Origin: Natronosalvus vescus
GTDB taxonomy: Archaea; Halobacteriota; Halobacteria; Halobacteriales; Natrialbaceae
Length of the DNA: 64,000 bases
Assembly (NCBI RefSeq): GCF_023973145.1
Contig: NZ_CP099546.1
Span: forward strand, 186,001-250,000
Reading direction: 5' to 3'
This document shows, one piece after another, positions 25,001 through 60,170 of the stretch. Below the pieces are notes generated by a model. It saw only the letters and a list, made by a program, of their open reading frames with translations. It was not told where the DNA came from and ran no database searches. The position numbers were made by a program, and so were the translations under genes. How positions within the stretch are numbered: the first letter of the stretch is position 1; each line of letters begins with the position of its first letter.

Positions 25001-25438
25001 ATGACTACCGAAAACGGATCCGAAGCACGTTCGACTCCTGCCCATTTGCTGCTCCGGGAGGTCTGGAACAGGGGGGATCTGGCACTGATAGACGAACTGG
25101 TCACGGAAGACCACATCCACCACGATCCCCTGCTTCCGGAACCACTCGAGGGCCGGGAGGCGCTGAAGGGGTGGGTCGAGACGGTTCGGGAAGGAACGCC
25201 CGACCTGACGAAGACCGTCCACGAGACGTACGTCGACGGCGACGCGGTGATCGTCACCTACACCACGACTGGAACGCACGAGGGTGAGATCATGGGGATC
25301 GCGCCGACCGGTCGCTCGCTCGAGGTCGATGGGGTTTACGTCCACCACCTCGAGGACAGCAGAATCACGGAGACTCTCGACACGTGGGACGCGTTCGGGC
25401 TCTTCGCACAGCTCGGGACGTTCCCGGAGGTGGTTTGA
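25001..25438 (+). CDS. SnoaL-like polyketide-cyclase-fold protein
   Basis: 145 residues of the SnoaL/NTF2-like fold: REVWNRGDLALIDELV at the start, the family's DHIHHDP, then GEIMGIAPTGRSLEVDGV and ITETLDTWD. Such proteins act as cyclases, isomerases or hydrolases on small molecules, or only bind them. Start ATG 25001 follows an AT-rich stretch. It ends one base before the likely start of the giant surface protein, so the two may be cotranscribed. Confidence 0.85.
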   Translation: MTTENGSEARSTPAHLLLREVWNRGDLALIDELVTEDHIHHDPLLPEPLEGREALKGWVETVREGTPDLTKTVHETYVDGDAVIVTYTTTGTHEGEIMGIAPTGRSLEVDGVYVHHLEDSRITETLDTWDAFGLFAQLGTFPEVV

Positions 25439-25439
25439 G

Positions 25440-28400
25440 TTGTTGCTAATCAGTGTAACCGACTCCCGTCCTCACGTCAGTCGCGTTCTTCTGTTCGGAG
25501 CGCTTCTCATAACGGCTGTTGCCCTCCTAAGTGCGGGTGCCGTTACCTCAGAAGGCGAACCTACTGAAATCGACTCGTGCATGGAGATCAACTCTCCAGG
25601 TACCTACGAATTGGCTAGTAACATCTCGCCTGAGAGCCCGTCGCAATGGGAGGTTCAAGATGCATGTCTCGTCATCAATAGTAGCGGAGTGACGCTGGAC
25701 GGGGCGGGATACACAATCGACGGGTATCCCGTCTCTGAAGACGAAGAGGACGTCTCGGATACGCGGGGTATCCTCGTCAGAAATGAGTCACACGTGGGTC
25801 TTGGCTGGTCCGACTCAGACGGCTGGTTGTCGGATATCACGATTCGGAACACCAACTTCGAGTACTGGGATCAATCAGTTCGGGTCGTCGGAGCGTCGGA
25901 CGTGACCATCGAGGACATCGTTTCCAGGTATGACGAGCAGTACCCACACGGGAATTACGCCGATATCCACGTCCGATACGGTGGGGAGATAGAGATTTCC
26001 TCGGTGGAGGCCACAGAGGAGCAGATTGGCCGAGCCATCTATGTAGATTCTGTATCGACAGCGACCATCCAGGGGGTTATGGTCGAGAGAGACCGTCACG
26101 GGACAAATCCGATGATCGACGTTCAGGATTCGTCGGACGTGACTGTGAGTGAAACTGTGCTCGACGATACTGTGGCTATCAACAGCATGTCTGCCCTGTC
26201 GACCTCCGGCATCGGTGTCAAGAACACAGACGGTGTCACGATAACCAACAACCAACTCATCGGAATTGGATCCACCACCGATGACGACCTGGATCGTCAC
26301 GGGATTTACTTCGACGGCCAGGTCACGGATGCACACGTAGAAGGTAACGAGATAATCGGTGGCGAGGATCTGGCGGGTGGTTCCGAGGTGGGAATCACAG
26401 CCAACTCGGCTGACGGAATCGTGCTCACTAACAATGAGATCGAGACCTGGTCAGGAATCGAATTGCTCGGTGGCGATAGCGCGACCATCACCGGGAACGA
26501 TATTCGTGAGGGGAGTCGTGACGGAATCCGACTGAGCGATTCGACGAATTCGGCCGTCTCCGACAACGACATCCATATGGAAAGTGGAACCGGAATAGAA
26601 ATCATTGATTCCTCACCAGAAGTCGTCGAGAATATCGACATTCAGGTTGACGGCCCTGGAGTCAGCATCTACCTGTTAGCCAACGATAACGACCCGGATG
26701 AGTTCTTCCATCTCTCAGATCTCTCGATATCAGGAGGCGGGATTGAGATCGACCGGCGGAATAATCTGCAGATTTCGGAGACGACCATCGAAGACGGTCG
26801 ACTCGAATATTCGGGCCCCTTCGGCGACTTCGACCAGAACGTGAGCATCGTCGATGTCGAAATTAGAGATTATCCTGGATTCGGTGCCACGGTTGAGTTA
26901 GAACGAGCAACCGGTGTTACGATCGAGAATGTGTCGTCGAAAGGTGGGATGAAACAGGGACTCCAGATAGGTCAGAGTAGCGAGGTTTCGGTCGATGGTT
27001 TCACGATAACCGACCATGGCGGCGAGGATGATTTCGCGTTTGTCACGTTGGAAGACTCCGACAACGTCTCAATTGATAAGTTAAATGTGTCACACAATCC
27101 TGCGACCGTAGAGGACGGCTCGTCCAGGGAAAAGGGATTGCTCTACCTCGGAGAAACGTTCCTAGGGGATGGTAACGAGGATATCCAGATTTCCAACCTC
27201 AGTGTGATTGACAACAACATCGAGGCACCGGCCCTGAAAATCGAAGACAGTCGGAACGTGTCGTTATTCGACGTAGCGATGTCTTCGCTGGATTCTGATT
27301 TCGCGGAAATCCACGATACGTCATCGGACGTTCAGGGAACCAACGTCACGCTCGGCCTCGACGCCCCGACCGAGGTGACCTTCTCGTTCGAAGGTGCCGG
27401 CATCGACCTCGGAGAGGCGGACAGCCCTCCGGCAAATCAGGATGCAGATTCCATCGAACAGTACCTCCGCGTCGAACCGGACGAATGGGCAGATGAACCG
27501 TATCTCGACCTTTCGTTCCACTATACGGATGACGACGTCAGTTCGGTCGAGGAAGATTCGTTGGACGTCTGGCACTACGCCTCTTGGGCGTCGTGGACCA
27601 CGACGCCAGATTCGACGGTGGAACCCGATCAGAATACCGTCAGCGTCTCGTTGAGCGAATTCCCCGATGATCTCGATGACACAAGGCCAGTGTTTGGAGC
27701 CTTCGCGGGGGCCTCGGCGGAGCTCCAGGTTACGTCCGCTTCGATTAACAAATCGGAAATCGAAGTAGACGAACCCGTGGCGGTGACCGCCGAGGTTGAG
27801 AATACCGGCGACGCGACGGGTACGCACACCGCGGAACTCGAGATCGACGGCAACGTCGAGGCCACCGAGACGGTCTCGATAGACGCCGGCGACACGGAGG
27901 AGATCACGTTCACGCACACCTTCGACGACGCCGGCGAGTTCGACGTGCGCGTCGACGACGTCGACGCGGGTACGGTGACGGTAGAGGAAGCCGAACTCGA
28001 CTTCGGCGGACTTCGAGTGACCGTTACCGACGCGACGGGTGACCCGATCGAAGGGGCCGGCGTCTGGGTCGTCCCACTGAGCGAGCCAACAGAGGGCGAG
28101 CCCGACGGGACGACGAACGAAACCGGCGTCTACGAAGAGGACAGCCCGGCCAGCACGTGGGACGTCGTGGTCGACGCCGACGGCTACGAGACCGAGCGTA
28201 TCGAGAACGTCGAGGTCGTCGCCGAGGAGTGGACGACCGTCGACGTCGAACTGCACCAGGTTGAAGCACCGCAGCCGGTGGTGACGGTGATCGACGCCAC
28301 ACTGAGCGAGGCAGACGTCGACGAGGGCGAGGCGGTGACGATAACCGCCACCCTCGAGAACACGGGCGACGCGACCGGAACGCACACCGCCGAACTCGAG

Positions 28401-30272
28401 ATCGACGGCACCGTCGAGGACGACGAGACTGTCGAGGTCGAAGCCGGTGAGACCGAGGAGATTGCATTCACGCACACGTTCGACGACGCCGGCGAGTTCG
28501 ACGTGCGCGTCGACAGCGTCGAGGCAGGCACGGTGACGGTGAGCGAGGCGGACGAGTCGACCTCGTCGCCATCACCGTCACCCTCGCCGTCGCCCACCCC
28601 CGACCCCGACCCAGAGCCGGCCGTGACGGTCGAACCGATTACCAACGGAACAGCGGTGTCGGTCACGGACGCAATCGCGAACGAAACGGTGTCGATCCCG
28701 ATCGCCGACGAACTCGAAGGCAGCGACTCCCACCTCGCCTGGCTGAACGTGACGACTACCGTTGACGGCGACTACGAGGCAACGATCAGGACAAGCGACG
28801 AACTCCCCGATGACGTCACTGAGCTCCCGGCCGATCCGGCGCTGTTGGAACCCCTCCAGATCACTACCTCGCTCGAGAGCGAGGAGATCGAGAACGCTAC
28901 ACTTGAGTTCGTCGTGCCAGCCGACGAATTGGACGCTCGTGGGCTCGAGCCTGAAGACGTGACGCTATACCACTACGACGACGGTGAGTGGATCGAACAC
29001 GACACGGAAAGTGTGTTCCCTGGTGATACCTGGAACGTCGAGGAGATAGGCGACAGTGAGGTACGGTTCCCGGGCGGGATGTGGGACGTCGCGGACGTCG
29101 GTGACACCGAAGTACTGTACCCGGGTGGAATGTGGGACGTCGAGGAGGTCGACGGCGACGTGGTGTTGTACCCCGGCGGCATGTGGGATCGCGAAGAGAT
29201 GGAGGGCCGAGAAGAACTGTTCCCCGGTGGCATGTGGGAGGTCGTAGAAATCGGTGACACCGAGGTGCTGTACCCCGGGGGCATGTGGGACGCTGACGAG
29301 GCTGATGACGTGGAGGAACTGTTCCCCGGTGGCACGTGGGAAGTCGCAGAAATAGGGGATACCGAGGTTCTGTACCCGGGCGACATGTGGAGTGTTGAGG
29401 AGGTTGAAGCCGGCATGGTGCTGTTCCCCGGTGGCACGTGGAACGTCGAAGATAGCGACGTCGAAGATGTAGACGACCTGGATGAGCTGTTCCCGGGCGG
29501 AATGTGGGAGGTTGCGGACGTCGGTGACACTGAGGTACTGTACCCCGGTGGGATGTGGAACCTCGAGAAGGTCGATGATCGTGCAGTGGTGTTCCCTGGC
29601 GGGATGTGGACTGTCGAAGAGGTAGGCAATGCTGGAATATTGTACCCGGGCGGAATGTGGGACGTCGCGGAGGTCTATGACCGTGCTGTACTCTTCCCCG
29701 GCGGTACGTGGGAGATTACCTACCGCGCCGAGACGCCCCACTTCTCCGCGTTTGCTCTCGCCGGCGATCGACCCCACCTCGAGGTCGTCGACAGTTCGGT
29801 GTCGCCGTCGGAGTTGTCGGTCGGCGAGGAGGCGACGATCGAGGCGACGGTGCGAAACGACGGCCGTGCAGCTGGCGAGATCGACCTCGATCTGGCGGTC
29901 GACGGCACGGTCGAGGAGACGAAAACCGTCACGCTCGAACCGGGCGACGAGCGGGTCGTGGCGTTCGGCCAGGCCTTCGACGAGCCCGGCGAGTTCGAGG
30001 TGACTGTTGCCGATCTCGAGGCAGGATCCGTGACAGTGGAAGCCGATGTCGACGAGGAGGCGACCGACGAAACCGACAGGGACGAAGCGGTGGCCGACGA
30101 CGATACGTCAGACGAGGGGACGACCGACGAGGAGACGACCGACGAAACCGATACGGACGAGGGCTCGGCCGACGAAACGGTGGCCGACGGAACCCCCGGG
30201 TTCGGCGTCCTCGCCGCCGTTGGCGCGGTTCTCGCCGTCCTCGGCGCGCTATCGATCCGCAGCCGCTCGTAA
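25440..30272 (+). CDS. Giant secreted protein: beta-helix, CARDB repeats, PGF-CTERM
   Basis: About 1610 residues. No ATG fits, so I take TTG 25440 or 25443, just before the signal peptide (VLLFGALLITAVALLSAG). Order: right-handed beta-helix (about 40-620) with NosD-like coils; an unassigned beta domain; CARDB (~758-850); a carboxypeptidase-regulatory-like domain (~855-940); a second CARDB (~948-1035) nearly identical to the first over long stretches; a Ser/Pro linker (~1040-1060); a PGF-pre-PGF domain split by a repeat array (~1193-1424); a third CARDB; an acidic linker; a PGF-CTERM end (TPGFGVLAAVGAVLAVLGA). It should be cut and lipid-anchored by archaeosortase A at the surface. The role may be carbohydrate binding or adhesion. 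Confidence 0.92.
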   Translation: MLLISVTDSRPHVSRVLLFGALLITAVALLSAGAVTSEGEPTEIDSCMEINSPGTYELASNISPESPSQWEVQDACLVINSSGVTLDGAGYTIDGYPVSEDEEDVSDTRGILVRNESHVGLGWSDSDGWLSDITIRNTNFEYWDQSVRVVGASDVTIEDIVSRYDEQYPHGNYADIHVRYGGEIEISSVEATEEQIGRAIYVDSVSTATIQGVMVERDRHGTNPMIDVQDSSDVTVSETVLDDTVAINSMSALSTSGIGVKNTDGVTITNNQLIGIGSTTDDDLDRHGIYFDGQVTDAHVEGNEIIGGEDLAGGSEVGITANSADGIVLTNNEIETWSGIELLGGDSATITGNDIREGSRDGIRLSDSTNSAVSDNDIHMESGTGIEIIDSSPEVVENIDIQVDGPGVSIYLLANDNDPDEFFHLSDLSISGGGIEIDRRNNLQISETTIEDGRLEYSGPFGDFDQNVSIVDVEIRDYPGFGATVELERATGVTIENVSSKGGMKQGLQIGQSSEVSVDGFTITDHGGEDDFAFVTLEDSDNVSIDKLNVSHNPATVEDGSSREKGLLYLGETFLGDGNEDIQISNLSVIDNNIEAPALKIEDSRNVSLFDVAMSSLDSDFAEIHDTSSDVQGTNVTLGLDAPTEVTFSFEGAGIDLGEADSPPANQDADSIEQYLRVEPDEWADEPYLDLSFHYTDDDVSSVEEDSLDVWHYASWASWTTTPDSTVEPDQNTVSVSLSEFPDDLDDTRPVFGAFAGASAELQVTSASINKSEIEVDEPVAVTAEVENTGDATGTHTAELEIDGNVEATETVSIDAGDTEEITFTHTFDDAGEFDVRVDDVDAGTVTVEEAELDFGGLRVTVTDATGDPIEGAGVWVVPLSEPTEGEPDGTTNETGVYEEDSPASTWDVVVDADGYETERIENVEVVAEEWTTVDVELHQVEAPQPVVTVIDATLSEADVDEGEAVTITATLENTGDATGTHTAELEIDGTVEDDETVEVEAGETEEIAFTHTFDDAGEFDVRVDSVEAGTVTVSEADESTSSPSPSPSPSPTPDPDPEPAVTVEPITNGTAVSVTDAIANETVSIPIADELEGSDSHLAWLNVTTTVDGDYEATIRTSDELPDDVTELPADPALLEPLQITTSLESEEIENATLEFVVPADELDARGLEPEDVTLYHYDDGEWIEHDTESVFPGDTWNVEEIGDSEVRFPGGMWDVADVGDTEVLYPGGMWDVEEVDGDVVLYPGGMWDREEMEGREELFPGGMWEVVEIGDTEVLYPGGMWDADEADDVEELFPGGTWEVAEIGDTEVLYPGDMWSVEEVEAGMVLFPGGTWNVEDSDVEDVDDLDELFPGGMWEVADVGDTEVLYPGGMWNLEKVDDRAVVFPGGMWTVEEVGNAGILYPGGMWDVAEVYDRAVLFPGGTWEITYRAETPHFSAFALAGDRPHLEVVDSSVSPSELSVGEEATIEATVRNDGRAAGEIDLDLAVDGTVEETKTVTLEPGDERVVAFGQAFDEPGEFEVTVADLEAGSVTVEADVDEEATDETDRDEAVADDDTSDEGTTDEETTDETDTDEGSADETVADGTPGFGVLAAVGAVLAVLGALSIRSRS
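29016..29711 (+). repeat. 51-base tandem repeats coding F/Y-P-G-G-M-W units
   Basis: Thirteen units in frame, twelve of 17 residues (51 bases) and one of 22, plus a final FPGGTW. The consensus is FPGGMW-(D/E/N)-V-x-E-V-x-D-x-x-V-L, with F and Y both common at the first position. Units differ at the wobble and acidic positions but keep P-G-(G/D)-(M/T)-W. The array lies inside the PGF-pre-PGF domain, between EWIEHDTE and TYRAETPHFSAFAL. Confidence 0.95.
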
Positions 30273-30326: not shown

Positions 30327-31553
30327 CTACTGGAGCCAGCGTTCGGCCACCCGCCGGTAGGTTTCGGTACAGCGCTCGAGCACCGCGATCGAGACGCTCT
30401 CGTCTTTCGTATGGGCCTCGCCGGGTTCGGAGGGGCCACAGATGACGCACGCGGTGCCGGCCTCGGCGAGCCACCCCGCGTCGGTCGCGTGGGGCTTCGT
30501 GACGAATTCCGGCGACCCCGACTGGACGTCTCGAGTGGCCTCGAGCACGGCTGCGGCGAAGGCATCGTCCGAACACTCCATCGGCGGGAGATCCTGGTCG
30601 ACGAGCCACTCGATGCCGGGGAGCTCCTCGACGCTTTCGATGGCTGCTCGCTCGCCCGGTACTGTGCGTTCGTCGACGGTGAGCGTACAGCTGTCGGGGA
30701 TTACGTTGATCGCCGAACCACCCTCGATCTCGGTGACGGCGAGGGTTCCACGGAGGGATTCGCCGGCGACCGTGACTTCCGGGAACTCGAGATCCCTGAG
30801 GACGTCGACCGCGTCGGCTGCGCGGTAGATGGCGTTCTCGCCGACCTCGGGCTCGCTGGCGTGAGACGACGTTCCGGAGACGGAAATCGTACTGCCACGG
30901 CGGCCGCGGTGGGCGACCACGACGTCGGTCACCCCGGGGCCGGAGTAGTTCGTCGAGCCCTCGCCGACGAGGGCGTAGTCGGGGACGAACCCGCGTTCGA
31001 TGGCGTGACGGGCACCGGTACCGCCGACCTCTTCGCCGACGAAGCTCGCAAACCAGAGCTCGCCACCGTCCGTAGGATCCTCGCCGTCACCGGAATCGGC
31101 TCTCCTGCTCGAGCCGGACAGATCGGCGTCCCGGAACGCGAGTGCTGCCGCGGCGACGGCGCCTTTCATGTCGGCAGTGCCGCGACCGTAGAGACGGCCG
31201 TCGCGTTCGTCGACGACGTACGCACCGTCGTCGTCCACCTGTTCGGGAGCCGGGGGCACGACGTCGTGGTGGCCCACGAGCGCGAGCGAGCCTGGGCCTG
31301 GCTCGACTCGACTCGACTCGCTACTCGAAGATTCGTGGTCGGAGGACGGCTCACTGCTCGAGGAGTCGCGGCCTCCGGACGACCCGCCACTCGTCCCGGG
31401 CGACCGACGGGCCAGCACGTTCCCCACCTCGTCACGGATCACCGTTGCGTCGGTCTCCCGGCGAAGCCACTCCTCGAGGGCGTCTCCGGCGGCGGTTTCG
31501 TCGGTATGGCTGGGGATCGAGACGAGTTCGCGGGTCAGGTCGGCGACACTCAT
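30327..31553 (-). CDS. M20 family metallo-deacylase
   Basis: 408 residues. ArgE/DapE-type: metal motifs GHHDVV (His95, Asp97), GRGTADMKGA, EEVGG and the C-terminal EAHTKDES are present. It probably removes an acyl group from an amino acid or a peptide bond in the cytoplasm; the exact substrate is not evident. Residues about 51-88 are a Ser/Gly-rich insertion before the first metal site that most family members lack. It converges with the giant protein gene. Confidence 0.92.
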   Translation of the reverse strand: MSVADLTRELVSIPSHTDETAAGDALEEWLRRETDATVIRDEVGNVLARRSPGTSGGSSGGRDSSSSEPSSDHESSSSESSRVEPGPGSLALVGHHDVVPPAPEQVDDDGAYVVDERDGRLYGRGTADMKGAVAAAALAFRDADLSGSSRRADSGDGEDPTDGGELWFASFVGEEVGGTGARHAIERGFVPDYALVGEGSTNYSGPGVTDVVVAHRGRRGSTISVSGTSSHASEPEVGENAIYRAADAVDVLRDLEFPEVTVAGESLRGTLAVTEIEGGSAINVIPDSCTLTVDERTVPGERAAIESVEELPGIEWLVDQDLPPMECSDDAFAAAVLEATRDVQSGSPEFVTKPHATDAGWLAEAGTACVICGPSEPGEAHTKDESVSIAVLERCTETYRRVAERWLQ

Positions 31554-59985: not shown

Positions 59986-60033
59986 GTGGTTGTGCAGATG
60001 GTGGTAGTGGTGGTTGTGCAGATGGTAGTAGTG
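59986..60033. repeat. Two 24-base GT-rich tandem repeats
   Basis: Copies at 59986-60009 and 60010-60033 differ at one position. GT-rich with a GTGGTTGTGCAG start. They lie upstream of the ACT regulator and probably reflect slippage; no protein is coded with support. Confidence 0.6.
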
Positions 60034-60170
60034 GTGCTCGTGATGCTGGTGGGCTATCGAGTGGGTTTCGACTGCGTGTCCCTGTCTCGTGTGGATCGGA
60101 TGGTGATCCGACTCCCGACACTTAAAAAATATGACTACATAAACATAATGGATATAATAATTTGATTAAA

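Follow-up and report, generated by a model that had tools for sequence, protein, structure and literature searches.

The host gene and its neighbourhood

The window, i.e., the whole stretch of 64,000 nucleotides analysed here, contains a gene for a predicted surface protein of a Natronosalvus species, in which one domain is interrupted by a tandem array of hexapeptides. Two of the genomes used for comparison, those of Natronosalvus amylolyticus (G001) and Natronosalvus hydrolyticus (G004), belong to the same genus. The features of the locus are as follows (amino acid positions are those of P0001).

25001-25438, + strand: upstream neighbour, SnoaL-like/ketosteroid-isomerase-related protein (synteny with G023 and G420)
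25440-30272, + strand: host gene, predicted surface protein of about 1610 amino acids (open reading frame and domain matches)
26205-26684, + strand: NosD-type right-handed beta-helix, best stretch (PF13229/PF05048, amino acids 257-416; profile match)
28614-29015, + strand: N-terminal part of PGF-pre-PGF, to ...GEWIEHDTESV (positions 48-130 of the TIGR04213 profile)
29016-29711, + strand: array of 14 [FY]PG[GD][MT]W hexapeptides with acidic 11-residue linkers (one of 16 residues)
29712-29762, + strand: resumption of PGF-pre-PGF, EITYRAETPHFSAFALA (positions 137-153 of the TIGR04213 profile)
29772-30011, + strand: third CARDB domain (amino acids 1446-1525; profile match, AF2, Foldseek)
30180-30269, + strand: PGF-CTERM-like C-terminus with an acidic linker, ...TPGFGVL, a hydrophobic stretch and RSRS (read from the sequence)
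30327-31553, - strand: downstream convergent neighbour, M20-type (ArgE/DapE) deacylase/peptidase (synteny with G420)

The start of the host gene is uncertain, as TTG codons at 25440 and 25443 are in frame, and a GTG at 25284 would result in overlap with the upstream gene. From the N-terminus, the protein consists of a hydrophobic segment, the NosD-type beta-helix, CARDB, CarboxypepD_reg, CARDB, a Ser/Pro linker, PGF-pre-PGF, CARDB, an acidic linker, and the PGF-CTERM-like tail. CARDB (PF07705) is recognized in three stretches with 68.8 bits at a cut-off of 22.7, and the third of these domains is modelled by AF2 with pLDDT 83-95 and matches the CARDB structure 3idu in Foldseek. The C-terminus (TPGFGVL...RSRS) was identified by eye, with no Pfam PGF-CTERM match at E 0.1; the C-terminus of the homologue L082 matches PGF-CTERM below the cut-off. 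The tail is predicted to hold the protein at the cell surface.

The upstream SnoaL-like gene is common to the window genome (G000), G023 and G420, and the downstream M20 deacylase gene, to G000 and G420. The syntenic genes differ at the N-terminus, which is a beta-helix in the window and a PQQ propeller in G023 and G420. In its N-terminal half, the window protein most resembles G383, and in its C-terminal half, G420/G023, and thus, judging from these similarities, the gene appears to be mosaic. The surface gene is absent from six other Natronosalvus regions next to the M20 gene (one of these loci ends at a contig end). A viral origin was rejected: there was no match in phage records, the domain has no relative in viral contigs, and the lone IMG/VR pattern match is a different low-complexity repeat.

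A short distance upstream of the window, this genome has two further PGF-pre-PGF genes, both array-free (G000:C1:180596-180796 and 183831-184052). A separate 24-bp tandem repeat of about 2.5 copies (window positions 59986-60050) is located at the start of a possible small open reading frame and inside the 5' part of one on the opposite strand.

The array and its insertion site

The array is in frame with the reading frame ending at 30272 and comprises residues 1194-1425 of P0001, 232 residues in total. It is made up of 13 units, twelve of 17 residues and one of 22 residues (29424-29489), followed by a terminal FPGGTW. The original prediction of thirteen F/Y-PGGMW repeats of 17 residues each at 29016-29711 was thus correct in location, but there are 14 motifs and one unit is longer; likewise, the alternation of F and Y starts is partial, the first residues of the 14 motifs following the order FFYYFYFYFFYFYF, and the peptide GDTEVL, counted there five times, has exactly four copies, in units 2, 5, 7 and 10, with one GDSEVR in addition. 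The array is strongly acidic (60 Asp/Glu and six Lys/Arg out of 232 residues). Searches of the array against NCBIfam, Pfam and PHROGs gave no match, no family library names the hexapeptide motif, and none of the six variants looked for was found in the literature searched.

Expansion by duplication, as had been proposed, is supported by the similarity of the units, which have a mean DNA identity of 67%, and by the 51-nt autocorrelation of the array, 0.62 compared with a maximum of 0.39 in 2000 codon shuffles. Since the closest pairs of units are non-adjacent (2/10 with 90% and 5/7 with 86% identity) and the identity at lag 2 (0.70) exceeds that at lag 1 (0.64), the array was likely formed by block-wise duplication that is not recent. 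The native strand GEWIEHDTESV is not a convincing source of the unit, as the likeness is mostly due to the GxW anchor (p 0.02-0.55 with the shared GxW fixed).

The copies have diverged unevenly. In pairwise comparisons of 12 window units, the motif Pro differs synonymously in 45 of the 66 pairs and Gly3 in 41, with no non-synonymous differences at either position; Trp is invariant, and linker codons mostly change the residue. The same is seen between species, where identity is 0.30-0.61 for linkers vs. 0.60-0.92 for motifs. As the motif keeps its shape while the linkers differ in length and sequence, the hexapeptide is the conserved unit, with selection acting on it. Since, in addition, relatives differ in copy number at this site and the motif recurs in an unrelated surface lipoprotein of the same genome (see below), the motif itself, rather than the spacing of its copies, looks like the working part.

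The interrupted domain was predicted to be a PGF-pre-PGF domain, and the whole protein indeed matches PGF_pre_PGF (TIGR04213) with 38.1 bits, above the cut-off of 28. When the beginning of the array is kept, the match yields 35.3 bits and covers profile positions 48-130; with the array cut to one FPGGTW, it rises to 53.4 bits and runs from 47 to 153, the end of the profile, which the native protein does not reach continuously. The tail alone matches from position 137, and hence the array interrupts the profile between 130 and 137. These matches uphold the further claim that the units split a normally continuous domain, and according to them the host domain is a split member of PGF_pre_PGF and not a non-member. 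As six profile positions are left between 130 and 137, one hexapeptide fits the turn.

In array-free relatives, both flanking segments are present and only a short turn separates them, e.g., LETEVVGTTGDRIILEAETP and LETEIVDRDDEFVVIEAETP, and the array-free L093 from the same genome has the short turn EWEALETEVVGTTGDRIILEAETPRFSYFAV at the array site. Thus, where the array-free PGF_pre_PGF members examined have a turn of few residues, the host domain has 232 residues. Among 125 Natrialbaceae, no single-motif intermediate was detected with a narrow pattern, which also missed some known arrays. In an AF2 model based on six homologues, the flanks of the array are strands (residues 125-134 and 367-384) with pLDDT about 57-85, higher further out, and in the N-terminal PGF-pre-PGF part, most pLDDT values are 77-91, falling locally to 57 and 72. 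From the profile and this strand assignment, we infer that the insertion site is the last beta-hairpin of the domain.

The hexapeptide in related and unrelated proteins

In a scan of 125 Natrialbaceae genomes, one per species, multi-copy F-PG..W patterns were found in eight. Reversed-pattern controls repeatedly match some genomes, and hence the mere existence of tandem arrays is not unusual. Arrays at the PGF-pre-PGF site are present in six genomes, that of the window and five other Natrialbaceae, with 14 motifs in the window genome, 13 in G420, 12 in G023, nine in G021 (Natronobiforma cellulositropha), seven in G383, and 29 in G004 (N. hydrolyticus), and they differ between species in linkers and motif variants. 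Array length, which was suggested to vary between strains, differs across the six species, and an array fixed among relatives, named as a finding that would speak against the original prediction, is excluded by copy numbers ranging from 7 to 29 at the same site. The other such finding, a domain that is not PGF-pre-PGF, is excluded by the profile match.

A search for F/Y-PG..W repeats in other proteins, of the kind suggested along with the original prediction, identified several families, including long DUF6517 (PF20127) lipoproteins. In the long form of DUF6517, a large insertion contains runs of similar hexapeptides (FPGDTW, IPGSTW, YPGSMW, FPGSEW), but the domain is unrelated, the N-terminus is of the lipobox type, and the runs are mostly linker-free, with a period of six residues. 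The runs are FPGG[MT]W/FPGD[MT]W in the window genome, IPGS[ST]W in G001 and G004, FPGD[ST]W in Natrialba swarupiae, FPGSEW in G409, and YPGSMW in G077, G183, G329 and G356 (two other haloarchaeal families). In the window genome, the PGG[MT]W variant is common to the DUF6517 gene and the array of the host gene: in this 3.84-Mb genome, the pattern [FY]PG[GDE][MT]W has 21 matches, 13 in the host gene and eight in the DUF6517 gene, and is limited to these two genes (no match for the control). The overlap of variants between the PGF and DUF6517 arrays is 0.90 and 0.88 within a genome, while between genomes it is mostly far lower; this comparison covers the two genomes that have both arrays, and each variant also occurs without the partner array (G001, G021).

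In N. hydrolyticus, both genes encode PGS[ST]W, with the serine at motif position 4 encoded by AGY in 28 out of 28 cases in one gene and by TCN in all nine motifs with this serine in the other. Since these codon sets are disjoint, the variant common to both genes did not spread between them by DNA copying; for this species, gene conversion was rejected on the same ground and because the longest DNA word found in both genes is 10 nt. In the window genome, where gene conversion is conceivable, the longest word common to the two array genes is 16 nt. That one cell encodes an identical peptide with different serine codons in two unrelated proteins points directly to convergence at the protein level.

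Beyond the archaea, FPGNDW arrays split the DUF2911 domain (PF11138) of Psychroserpens and Algibacter between profile positions 77 and 78, much as in the host domain, and cutting the array to one unit gives a single full-length match of 72.0 bits vs. 61.3 bits in two stretches; array-free DUF2911 paralogues have VPKDSAW or VPKDSVW at the turn. These flavobacterial proteins differ from the host in being bacterial and in their domain and linkers, and their arrays are probably convergent, an independent evolution of the same solution. FPGQDW (seven copies) or FPGLEW (eight copies) occurs in a long beta-helix-like protein of Myxococcota and other bacteria (L047, L060, L069). Both the DUF2911 and the Myxococcota beta-helix-like cases lie in long open frames, whereas some other bacterial FPG..W matches (e.g., in Microseira, Desulfonema and Treponema) were rejected as repetitive or out-of-frame sequence.

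Several other repeat proteins were encountered. In G409, a 189-codon frame (L115:7460-8026) encodes a small predicted secreted protein that largely consists of ten FPG[AS]DWDEKN copies (4-residue linkers) and has weak PHROG matches (phrog_15350, E 1e-8), possibly due to the repeats; two further proteins of this genome contain FPGDTW/FPGDTL runs. The DUF6517 protein of Natrialba swarupiae (L081:7404-9782) also has repeated YPxGWSDW and VGRL-type short motifs.

Possible roles of the array

It was originally suggested that the array could form a beta-solenoid stalk. In this reading, it would fold as a regular solenoid or beta-meander, each unit contributing two short strands linked through PG turns, and would act as a rigid stalk or spacer. 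Proline–glycine pairs favour tight turns, 12 of the 13 window units have exactly 17 residues, and in the AF2 model, which is of low confidence, the first units appear as alternating strands about six residues long. However, spacing in relatives is irregular, with linkers of 3-16 residues in the array family and of 0 (DUF6517) or 4 residues in other families; pLDDT is 23-48 for the array and about 22 for the array of the second family, values that could also result from the small depth of the alignments (6 and 9 rows); a search for PDB relatives by sequence gave chance-level matches only; and entry and exit at one hairpin turn would fit a side-arm more readily than a stalk placed in line. Such a stalk is unlikely, its positive support being limited to the regular 17-residue spacing in one species. 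We consider just as doubtful a harmless expansion of a permissive surface loop, with the motif kept by solubility or folding limits only. Hairpin tips tolerate insertions, tandem arrays are common, and the flavobacterial FPGNDW arrays occupy a corresponding kind of turn, but the purely synonymous variation of Pro and Gly and the invariant Trp in diverged copies, as well as the use of the same hexapeptide, differently encoded, in unrelated surface proteins, argue against mere tolerance.

We give about an even chance to a flexible side-arm at the tip of the hairpin, on which a binding motif with an aromatic PG turn would be presented many times over. One [FY]PGxxW would fit the turn between the strands ...GEWIEHDTESV and EITYRAETP..., and duplication of the hexapeptide with its linker in blocks would have produced an acidic arm of 232 residues whose exit from the PGF-pre-PGF domain coincides with its point of re-entry. 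Selection acts on the hexapeptide, and the linkers would serve as spacers. At the cell surface, the many aromatic PG-turn motifs of the arm could provide avidity, as weak contacts of the Phe/Tyr...Trp pairs, made either to a surface partner or to further copies of the motif (e.g., those of the DUF6517 lipoprotein), would add up, leading to adhesion or assembly.

The hexapeptide might instead be a substrate site, with Trp or Ser/Thr modified by a dedicated enzyme (a cross-link or a glycan), making the array a multiply modified scaffold. This reading would agree with the repetition of short, nearly identical motifs whose Trp never varies, with the Ser/Thr that many variants have at position 4 or 5, and with the small repeat protein of G409, but no modifying enzyme was found among the scanned neighbours, and G, D, M and H also occur at positions 4-5, so that we give it the slimmest chance of all.

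In some species, array genes have a recurrent neighbour. The PGF-array genes of G004 and G383 are adjoined by divergent HTH-FilR1-nSTAND-TPR genes, 54% identical to each other, and the DUF6517-array genes of G001 and G004, by genes of the same type, 46-49% identical to those beside the PGF-array genes; in N. amylolyticus, such a gene is located beside an array-free NosD/CARDB/PGF-CTERM-like gene, and none was found beside the host gene of the window. At E 1e-20, relatives of the N-terminal 779 residues occur in only six plasmid records, so that, judging from plasmids, the family seems to be uncommon. The homologues (HTH-FilR1-nSTAND_NTPase5-TPR) are L009:1-3237, L082:13184-16000, L165:2-2821, L248/L164, and L258:9058-12441, and the encoded protein is possibly a regulator or a conflict-type partner of the surface proteins. 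In a broader, very improbable reading, [FYIV]PGxxW would serve as a species-specific tag for recognition or self-association, shown on unrelated surface proteins of a single haloarchaeal cell (PGF-pre-PGF proteins, DUF6517 lipoproteins and small secreted repeat proteins), its sequence having converged within the genome. In some species, it would be linked to the adjacent HTH-FilR1-nSTAND-TPR protein, and the whole would form a kin-recognition or contact-sensing system of short tandem peptides. Among known systems, the VARTIG modules of Thermococcales belong to large secreted archaeal CARDB/Ig proteins with a variable C-terminal part and have been proposed to function in conflict or self recognition, but they vary by recombining whole Ig domains and not short tandem motifs (PMC8416519).

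The convergence of the peptide in two unrelated proteins of one cell turns its binding target into a question that a short synthetic peptide, e.g., (FPGGMWDVEEVGDTEVL)n, can address. If the motif binds a surface partner, the array would be a tunable multivalent adhesion module of haloarchaea, with valency evolving by copy number.
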